From: Chaetoceros tenuissimus
Lineage: Eukaryota; Bacillariophyta; Thalassiosirophyceae; Chaetocerotales; Chaetocerotaceae
Length of the DNA stretch: 64,000 nucleotides
Assembly (NCBI GenBank): GCA_021927905.1
Contig: BLLK01000038.1
Location: 682,001-746,000, forward strand
Direction of reading: 5' to 3'
Positions 54,318-57,238 of this stretch are shown here, piece by piece. Within the stretch, counting starts at the first letter, position 1; each line of letters begins with the position of its first letter. The notes under the pieces are model-generated. The model was not told the origin of the DNA. It was given only the letters and a program-made list of their open reading frames with translations, and did no database searches. Position numbers and translations under genes: made by a program.

Positions 54318-55160
54318 ATGACTCCTTCATATTGGAGAAATGTGTTGGGTACTTCTCTGGTAGTACTATTGGGAGGCTCGACACTTGTACACTCTTTTAC
54401 CTTTTCGCAACCTCGACCACTTTCATTGTCACAAACTCCATCCAGCCAATTGAGCGCTACCGTCGAATCTGATTGTGGATGCGGACCTACTGTCTTTGAA
54501 GGAAAACCATCCAGTGCTGCCCAAAACAATATTGATCATAGGTCTGCAATTGCCACACTTCCAATATACAATGTCGACAGTGGAGAAACGAGCATAGATG
54601 AAATTATAGGAAATGCAAAAGAAAACCCAAACAAGACTTCTCTTGTTGTCTTTCTCCGTTCATTAGGATGACCTTTCTGCCAAGAGCAGATTGTACAGTA
54701 TAATCGTATTAGGCAATCTGAACTCTTGGCGAATGATATTCAATTAGTACTTGTTTCGATCGGTAAACCTGAAATCGGCAAGAAACTATTGGATCATCTC
54801 AAGGTGGGCAATGGAGAAGAATGGATATTTGTTGATCCAGAAAACAAATTATATGATGCGCTTCAATTGAATAGTGGAATTGAAACTACATTTTTTTCTA
54901 TCGAAACACCATTTGCATTCCGAGATAGATTCTTTGGAAACGGAGGTAGAACTGATGGCATGAAAGACTTATTGGATGTATTGGGGAAATGGAAAGATGC
55001 TGTTTATATTCCACCAAAGCAAGAGCAAGCATTTCAGCAAGGTGGAGCTTTTGTTTTCAAAGGGGCAAATACGGCATTCGCGTATTACGACGCAGCAGCA
55101 GGGACTCATCTCGAAGTGAAAAAAGCTGTTGAGAAAGCAAAAGAGATTGCTCTTTTGTAG
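54318..55160 (+). CDS. SELENOU: Plastid-targeted SelU/PRXL2-type selenoprotein with in-frame TGA
   Basis: The frame from ATG 54318 meets TGA at 54669-54671 (codon 118) and continues open, in the same frame, to TAG at 55158-55160, for 280 residues. The TGA falls in LRSLG-U-PFCQEQ, exactly where peroxiredoxin-like 2/SelU proteins have the redox C/U-x-x-C motif. The following sequence is that family: VSIGKPEIGKKLLDHLKVGN, FVDPENKLYDALQL and YIPPKQEQAFQQGGAFVFKG. The leader ends HSFTFSQ, the plastid motif, followed by a Ser/Pro/Gln transit region. A thiol/selenol peroxidase or reductase role in the plastid is inferred. Reading TGA as Sec needs a SECIS element in the 3' UTR (see findings); if none exists this is a pseudogene, but no other break is present. 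Confidence 0.85.
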
Positions 55161-55696
55161 TAGAGGATACTACAGTCCAGCAATACTTTCATATTTAATG
55201 GGACAAAATTGGCATATGCATAGAATGACAACGATTTTGTAGTTACTATTGTGAATCCACAACATGTAGAACACTTCGTTTGATAATTTGCGATGCTCAA
55301 TGTATTGTTCATGAAATATGATGTAATGTTAAAAGTTGTTTAGGTGATGTATCTCTATATTATTCCAAGATATTTCTTACAACCAAGTGCGTCAGAATTC
55401 TCCAAGAGTTGGTGATCTACGTACTCGATAGTCTAAATGAAAAGCAATCAATGAATTTATTGTCATTGTGAATAAGATCATGGTGCTCATAGCCTATCAT
55501 ATTAACTTTTCTATCAATAAACTAATAAACGAGATCGAGTCATCATTTTTTGTTCTTCGTCATGACGTCATTGGAAACAAAAATACCACACACACGCTGA
55601 AAAAATAATGGACCACCCAATTGTTCTTTCCATGCGTTCAAAAATTAACATCACTCATCTCCTTGGATTTACTGACTTCTACAGTAATTACAATCT
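55161..55696. other. Intergenic; 3' UTR of the selenoprotein gene
   Basis: 535 bp between two plus-strand genes. The first part should contain the 3' UTR and any SECIS element. The rest carries the promoter of the ABC1 kinase gene. No further gene. Confidence 0.45.
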
Positions 55697-57238
55697 ATGA
55701 GTGTTACAATGTTAAGACTAGTTCAGCGTCGACCTTTGGCGTCAGTTGCTGCGACAACAATAGCAGGGACACTAGGCTATGGAACATATGTTGAAAAGAA
55801 AGCAAACATTGAATCCAAGCATTCCATACCTCGTGAATATAATAGGGATGCAATTGCTGAATACTGGAAAGAAAGACCTATATCAATTTTATCCAGAATA
55901 AGTACCATCGGCTCTGAATTAGTGCCAATATTCGCCAGATATGTAATTGATTTTAAAATTTTGAATAATGATGAACCTAAAGAGAAAGAAGCAAAATATC
56001 AACAACATGCATCTGAATTAAGACATGCTTTGACAAGATTAGGACCAGCATTTATAAAGTTTGGACAACAGCTTTCGATAAGACCAGATTTATTGCCTGC
56101 ATCTGTATTGAAAGAGTTGCAAAAGTTATGTGATGCTGTGGAGCCAGTTCCTGATGAGATTGCATTGAAGACCATTGTCGAAGACCTTGGAGACGATATT
56201 TTAAGCAAACATATTCCTCATCTACAACATGAAAATGGTTTTGACAAAGAGAATGTCAAGTTGGTTGCTGCTGCATCGTTAGGTCAAGTATATAAAACCA
56301 AGTTGAAATCTGGTGAAACAGTTGCCATCAAAGTACAGAGACCTGATATGGTGGAAAGAGTTTCCCTTGACCTATTCCTATTGAATCAATACGGACTGTT
56401 TCTTGATACAATTTTCGAAGTTTTGACAGAGCAAATTCCTTTCCACGTAGACTTTATTGATTGCTTTGCAAAAGGGTCATACGAAGAGCTAGATTATGAG
56501 AAGGAAGCACAGAACCAGCTTTATTTCAAGAAAGAATTTAAAAAACGGAAGTGTGATGTGCACATTCCTGCTGTACACACTGACCTTACATCAAGACGGG
56601 TCATCACCACAGAATGGATAGATGGAATTAAGCTCACCGATGCGGACCAAGGAACAATTCAAAGATTGATTCCAGCAGGTGTAGATATTTTTATGACACA
56701 GCTCTTGGACATTGGCAAGTTCCATTCAGATCCTCATGCTGGAAACCTATACGTCACTGAAAGTGGAAGTTTATGCTTACTCGACTTTGGATTGTGTGCA
56801 GATATTGATGATCAATCTAGACAAGCAATGACGACAGCAATTGTTCACCTTTTGAATGGAGATTTCGACACACTGATTTCAAAGGATGCAATTGATCTTG
56901 GATTTTTGCCTTCTGATTGCGACACAACGGAGATCAAACCTATCTTGACAAAGATTTTGACAGAAGGACTTTTGGAGGCTGGTTCTGATCTTCATGCAAG
57001 AAAGCGAAGATTGATGTCCATCAGTAATGAATTGAATGAAGTTTTCTTTCGTTATCCATTCTCTGTACCACCATTTTTTGCATTGATTACCCGTGGATTG
57101 GGTTTGTTGGAAGGCATTGCGCTTAGTGGTGATTCAAATTTTGATATTTTCCAGGCATCATACCCATATGCAAGGAGGAGAGCTGTTAGATTGTTTGGTG
57201 CACATATTCTACAAAGAACAGCAACACAAATGAAGTAA
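55697..57238 (+). CDS. ABC1/ADCK atypical kinase (UbiB/COQ8 family)
   Basis: A 513-residue protein. The N-terminus has a basic stretch and a weak hydrophobic segment (LASVAATTIAGTLGYGTYVE), suiting mitochondrial import. The ABC1 domain is complete: KxGQ motif FIKFGQQLSIRPDLLP (about 118-133), the nucleotide-loop AAASLGQVYKTKLKSGE (about 190-206), VAIKVQRP with the catalytic Lys, then HSDPHAGNLYV (about 343-353) and the metal-binding LLDFGLCAD (about 359-367). The family supports coenzyme Q biosynthesis in mitochondria (COQ8) or quinone/tocopherol metabolism in plastoglobules. The lack of a clear phenylalanine motif favours mitochondria. The AAAS loop has Leu where Ile is commoner. Confidence 0.92.
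   Translation: MSVTMLRLVQRRPLASVAATTIAGTLGYGTYVEKKANIESKHSIPREYNRDAIAEYWKERPISILSRISTIGSELVPIFARYVIDFKILNNDEPKEKEAKYQQHASELRHALTRLGPAFIKFGQQLSIRPDLLPASVLKELQKLCDAVEPVPDEIALKTIVEDLGDDILSKHIPHLQHENGFDKENVKLVAAASLGQVYKTKLKSGETVAIKVQRPDMVERVSLDLFLLNQYGLFLDTIFEVLTEQIPFHVDFIDCFAKGSYEELDYEKEAQNQLYFKKEFKKRKCDVHIPAVHTDLTSRRVITTEWIDGIKLTDADQGTIQRLIPAGVDIFMTQLLDIGKFHSDPHAGNLYVTESGSLCLLDFGLCADIDDQSRQAMTTAIVHLLNGDFDTLISKDAIDLGFLPSDCDTTEIKPILTKILTEGLLEAGSDLHARKRRLMSISNELNEVFFRYPFSVPPFFALITRGLGLLEGIALSGDSNFDIFQASYPYARRRAVRLFGAHILQRTATQMK

Follow-up and report, generated by a model that had tools for sequence, protein, structure and literature searches.

Selenoproteins of the SelU family are known from diatoms, and two have been described in Thalassiosira pseudonana (PMC2375036). 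Few selenoproteins are as widespread among algae as SELENOU, and Thalassiosira oceanica possesses AhpC_b, a UxxC selenoprotein with an AhpC/TSA domain for which the homologues found were prokaryotic Cys forms (PMC7539508). UxxC Prx-like selenoproteins have also been published from bacteria (PMC2398784). Prostamide/prostaglandin F synthase, which reduces prostamide H2, has been filed as SelU3 (PMC3473315). The first-pass annotation of the locus described here, in Chaetoceros tenuissimus, proposed a plastid-targeted selenoprotein of SelU type and called it unusual. That term does not suit the Sec form of SelU, already published from diatoms (PMC2375036, PMC7539508), nor UxxC AhpC-like proteins, which are likewise known there; what is less ordinary is the proposed plastid location, together with a uniform SECIS core.

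The window, a stretch of 64,000 nucleotides (contig BLLK01000038.1, positions 682,001 to 746,000), contains the coding frame at 54318..55160; all window features given below are on the forward (+) strand. The frame opens with ATG at 54318, has TGA at 54669-54671 (residue 118) and closes with TAG at 55158-55160, for a total of 281 codons including the stop and a predicted product of 280 residues with Sec at 118. Scanning of the 281 codons revealed no stop other than TGA 118 and no frame break, and the earlier statement that this TGA is the sole interruption was exact in coordinates and letters. The TGA sits in LRSLG-U-PFCQEQ, and Cys121 (54678..54680) is the second residue of the U-x-x-C motif. 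The protein was aligned with 11 relatives, two of them paralogues in its own genome and nine bacterial; the column of residue 118 held Cys or TGA in 11/11 relatives, and Cys121 was Cys in all 12 sequences. On this and the evidence below, the TGA is very probably read as Sec in a nuclear gene for a peroxiredoxin-like selenoprotein. A gene caller had been expected to split or truncate the locus, and the standard-code ORF listing did return two pieces, one of 117 aa (54318-54671) and a TTG-started one of 144 aa (54726-55160). A caller treating TGA as a stop would truncate the protein at residue 117.

An AhpC-TSA_2 domain (PF13911) was found at residues 133-259 (54714..55094; E 9.8e-12, 45.7 bits, cut-off 27), a match above cut-off but restricted to sequence downstream of the TGA. 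Two other models aligned across the TGA: NF040769 (SelL-related redox protein) at residues 103-197 (E 2.3e-16) and Redoxin at residues 101-181 (E 1.9e-4, below its cut-off). These alignments, although below cut-off, bear out the earlier view that the two flanks belong to one family, and both flanks have a codon signal. NF040769 was the best curated NCBIfam match and, by spanning the motif, marks a likeness to SelL-related proteins; however, its score of 59.9 bits fell well short of the 120-bit cut-off. The UxxU motif is the defining mark of SelL, whereas the window protein has U-P-F-C and is thus UxxC.

A profile built from 12 sequences matched the solved prostamide/prostaglandin F synthase (9us9) with an E of 1.9e-19, and the CxxC of the enzyme aligned with U-x-x-C; a second structure entry, 9usa, has Ser at both Cys positions of the CxxC. 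PRXL2B is another name for this synthase. When the window protein alone was searched against the PDB with phmmer, there was no match at E up to 1, in contrast to one of its paralogues (paralogue c), which as a single sequence matched the synthase at E 2.2e-9. BLASTP of the window protein gave the other paralogue (b) and bacterial proteins as nearest, and the match to paralogue c covered only 12 residues. Because paralogue c matches the synthase while the window protein is nearer to paralogue b and bacteria, the genome apparently encodes a single canonical SelU (c) alongside two SelL-related-like proteins (the window gene and b). The designation "SelU-type" is therefore apt for fold and motif, as indicated by PF13911 and the synthase profile match, but less so for closest kinship, which by these searches appears to be with bacterial SelL-related proteins and paralogue b rather than with the canonical SelU of the genome (paralogue c). 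By sequence comparison the protein is a predicted PRXL2/SelU-fold, peroxiredoxin-like protein with PF13911. It shares with SelU/PRXL2 proteins this domain, Sec or Cys as the first residue of U/C-x-x-C, and the occurrence of Sec forms in diatoms (PMC2375036). AhpC_b of T. oceanica, with its AhpC/TSA domain, is likewise UxxC (PMC7539508), and the two proteins may be of the same group, a likeness that is by description only.

Unlike SelU/PRXL2 proteins, the window protein has a plastid-type leader. By rule, residues 1-26 (54318..54395) form a putative signal peptide that ends in VHS; its hydrophobic core begins at residue 14 and averages 2.3 on the Kyte-Doolittle scale across 11 residues. A putative plastid transit peptide then starts with FTFSQPRPLSLSQTPSSQLS (54396..54455). 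The 20 residues from Phe27 (+1) include 8 Ser/Thr, 1 Arg and 0 Asp/Glu, and such traits, above all Phe at +1, are those of diatom plastid protein leaders (PMC4329603). Judged by hand, the leader conforms to the published ASAFAP rule for red-lineage complex plastids, which calls for a signal peptide, then Phe, Trp, Tyr or Leu at +1, and a transit peptide that is basic and rich in Ser/Thr. This agrees with the import motif noted in the first pass. Import of the protein into the plastid is, on these leader traits, moderately favored. Alternatively, the leader could be no more than a signal peptide or an anchor, with the same selenoprotein acting in the ER, in the periplastid space or along the secretory pathway. 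Several thioredoxin-fold Sec proteins act in the ER, and the cleavage motif of the leader, VHS-F-TF, departs in its letters from the literal ASAFAP; both would suit a nonplastidial protein. However, Phe at +1 followed by a Ser/Thr-rich stretch free of acidic residues is what the published plastid leaders display (PMC4329603), and a comparable leader, AHA-F-VSQ, is present on a Sec-MsrA encoded in this genome. We consider a location outside the plastid possible but the less probable of the two.

The Sec-MsrA just mentioned (L035, G000:C33:736329-736739; LGUFWHPDQ), whose leader reads AHA-F-VSQSS with one acidic residue, is a candidate second plastid-targeted selenoprotein. The leader of paralogue b reads SSA-F-SAS and then has two acidic residues. 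A search of mostly open-access literature gave no report of a plastid-targeted selenoprotein among the matches listed, judged by title and opening of the abstract, which does not prove that none exists. The main text of the AhpC_b report (PMC7539508) has no plastid, chloroplast, subcellular, signal peptide or localization wording.

We searched the C. tenuissimus genome (41.0 Mb, 68 contigs) for relatives and other Sec genes. The window protein retrieved itself and a match on contig C19 that also has one TGA (paralogue b). PF13911 was found in five places, four above cut-off, and in 3 of the 5 there was a TGA in U-x-x-C: the window gene (LRSLGUPFC), paralogue b and paralogue c. Paralogue b reads HFGUFLCWEHA, or FLRHFGUFLC after removal of an 82-nt intron by one of three open splice choices. 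Paralogue c, on contig C46, reads VVRRPGUVLC (RRPGUVLCREQ). The two remaining places (L006 and L007) were PF13911-like without the motif, L007 being the one below cut-off. The first pass had recommended asking whether diatom PRXL2/SelU relatives have Cys or Sec at this position; both paralogues with the motif have TGA there. Matches with one internal TGA were flagged at nine places (the window gene, C19, L017, L018, L019, L028, L033, L034 and L035). The MsrA L033 was excluded from the Sec-gene count because its active-site residue is Cys, and paralogue c, unflagged because its PF13911 match begins after its motif, was added by reading. The nine Sec genes counted were therefore the window gene, paralogues b and c, three GPx genes (L017, L018, L019), one SelT (L028) and two MsrA (L034, L035). 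Thioredoxin reductase matches in the genome had no TGA and were unused.

Bacterial relatives were sought with a degenerate pattern from a three-sequence alignment, run over one genome per species for 84,980 prokaryote species, a search that was not exhaustive. The 127 candidate stretches included nine that encode a relative, with 21-31% identity in best segments. In the column of U118 these had Cys in eight and TGA in one, and Cys121 was present in 9/9, although 8 of the 9 were retrieved by a pattern that itself demanded Cys; the other, L040, came from a different pattern. L040 (1375-1947), from a Thermoanaerobaculia metagenome-assembled genome, has its TGA in VRHFGUMFCREQ and is apparently a bacterial UxxC selenoprotein of the same family, which likens the window protein to the UxxC Prx-like proteins of bacteria. 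There was no match to the window protein by tblastn against plasmids and phages, and no relative was found in the viral contigs searched.

The 3' UTR is bounded by a downstream gene for an ABC1 atypical kinase-like protein (55697..57238; PF03109, E 4.6e-54). A search of this region for a SECIS had been advised, and with our own descriptor we found a SECIS-like element at 55209..55301, which has helix I (UUGGCAUaUGCA/UGCGAUGCuCAA), the core, helix II from AACGA/UCGUU, and an apical hairpin. The 5' side of the core, AUGA (55225..55228), lies within AAUGAC at 55224-55229, and the 3' side, GA (55282..55283), adjoins a C-U mismatch; the core is 63 nt after the stop. AAUGAC was present in the 3' UTR of 9/9 Sec genes read in the genome, 39-87 nt after the stop. 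In the descriptor, the AUGA/GA core is kept unpaired, as are the residues that follow it, and helix II is imposed just inside. All nine elements had already been viewed when the descriptor was devised, and its energy thresholds alone derive from the other eight. Folded under this constraint, all nine Sec genes adopted the SECIS shape and showed a mismatch, either C-C or C-U, inside the core; helix I was not seen in the GPx L019. An unconstrained fold of 55208-55300 gave the same helices I and II. The stability of the element was ordinary (z -0.94; 35/200 shuffles folded at least equally well). In its apical part AG is unpaired instead of a clear AA, and the AA is also non-uniform in the other eight.

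We then considered how often the geometry passes elsewhere. On both strands of the window, 44 AATGAC sites were tested and only the one at 55224 passed. Of the 37 loci L001-L037, 33 served as background from the same genome, with L001, L004, L005 and L029 excluded as overlapping. They contain 91 AATGAC sites, of which 10 passed: those of the eight other Sec genes, plus 2 among the other 83. Among 20,000 dinucleotide shuffles of 55161-55400, AATGAC occurred in 2,570 and a passing element in 14. The two passes outside known Sec genes, L025:539 and L030:1179, may be due to chance. With the Rfam SECIS_1 model nothing was found near the window gene, and a scan of the genome at E up to 10, in which 133 of 890 candidates were scored, gave 0 matches. 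The model also fails on the genome's Sec genes from other families and is therefore insensitive here. Three SelU-like Sec genes, three GPx Sec genes and two controls were given to a first script of ours, which used the published NTGA/AA/GA spacing and disallowed a mismatch after the core. Among the Sec genes it recovered the later element in 3/6 (paralogue b, GPx L017 and GPx L019) and missed it in paralogue c, GPx L018 and the window gene, where the sole candidate, at UTR position 951, was weak; control L016 gave none and control L006 one weak candidate. A covariance model was not built because MAFFT misaligned the cores of eight elements. The core is nearly fixed across the nine Sec genes, with AAUGAC then A/G and a C-Y mismatch inside, and looks lineage-specific. 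This shared core offers a simple, genome-specific handle on the remaining selenoproteome, which the Rfam model misses here.

The Sec reading of the TGA, as first proposed, is strongly supported by the TGAs of the paralogues, the Cys/TGA column of the bacterial relatives, the SECIS-like element and the Sec machinery described below. If the TGA were instead an ordinary stop, the locus would be a pseudogene or a gene whose product ends after 117 residues, and the frame beyond would be a relic, as the two pieces of the standard-code listing might suggest. We scored codons by log-odds trained on 30 further long ORFs from the window. The in-frame values were 0.214 per codon upstream of the TGA and 0.321 downstream, compared to -0.133 to -0.003 for the other two forward frames and a maximum of 0.039 for the 3' UTR. 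The best reverse frame scored 0.17 upstream and 0.09 downstream, so the coding signal upstream of the TGA is less distinctive than that downstream. Against an ordinary stop stand a signal that peaks after the TGA, an otherwise unbroken frame, a TGA placed exactly on the Cys/Sec column, and a SECIS-like element in the 3' UTR. A pseudogene was rejected on the coding signal and that element, and we regard the ordinary-stop explanation as a whole as very improbable. TGA terminates 6 of the 30 long ORFs, which indicates that the recoding is local and the genetic code unchanged; genome-wide reassignment of TGA was ruled out on this count. Least probable of all is that the TGA is spliced out or decoded as another residue: spliced genes exist and paralogue b seemingly has an intron just before its motif, but residues 106-127 align gap-free with the bacterial relatives, so an intron over the TGA does not fit, and the use of TGA as terminator in the window stands against changed decoding.

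With the TGA as Sec, the host would be an alga with a complex plastid, and its nuclear gene would specify a selenoprotein that has a thioredoxin fold and resembles peroxiredoxins. Cytosolic ribosomes would meet UGA 118 and insert Sec in place of termination, with the SECIS in the 3' UTR recruiting an SBP2-like protein and eEFSec with Sec-tRNA. The leader would most likely then route the Sec-bearing protein, after its cytosolic synthesis, via the ER into the plastid. Sec118 and Cys121 would act as a U-x-x-C thiol-selenol redox pair, reducing a peroxide or some other oxidised substrate, after which a thiol system would restore the reduced pair. Prostamide H2 is the compound reduced by the related synthase (PMC3473315), so a plastid lipid peroxide is a reasonable, if speculative, suggestion for the substrate. 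If the leader is functional, selenium status would directly affect peroxide handling in a phytoplankton plastid. Whether the plastid has a selenium-dependent thiol redox branch, comprising the window protein and perhaps the Sec-MsrA L035 and paralogue b, along with a lineage-specific SECIS core, seems to us evenly balanced.

The genome encodes machinery for Sec insertion. SepSecS (E 5.6e-113), SelD (E 1.5e-75, carrying Cys) and eEFSec domain 4 (E 3.9e-15) were found. An L7Ae-domain protein (L054) has a KARRRLVMGLREV stretch that resembles SBP2, and is a likely candidate for that protein. Five tRNA-Sec loci were above the Rfam cut-off, and ARAGORN read three, with anticodon TCA. Two tRNA-Sec-like loci were not reported by ARAGORN. 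L011 (G000:C34:1126986-1127071; 69.6 bits) lies 2.8 kb from a normal tRNA-Sec, L009, and has CCTTAAAT in place of CTTCAAAC in its anticodon loop; it could be either a pseudogene or a form with an altered anticodon. L012 (G000:C54:1808110-1808207; 63 bits), which went unreported with introns of 0-40 allowed, carries an insertion of 12 nt immediately 3' of the anticodon (CTTCAAATTAATGAAGAAACCTG), with TTCA/TGAA complementarity. Nuclear tRNA introns sit at about this place, and L012 may be an intron-bearing tRNA-Sec.
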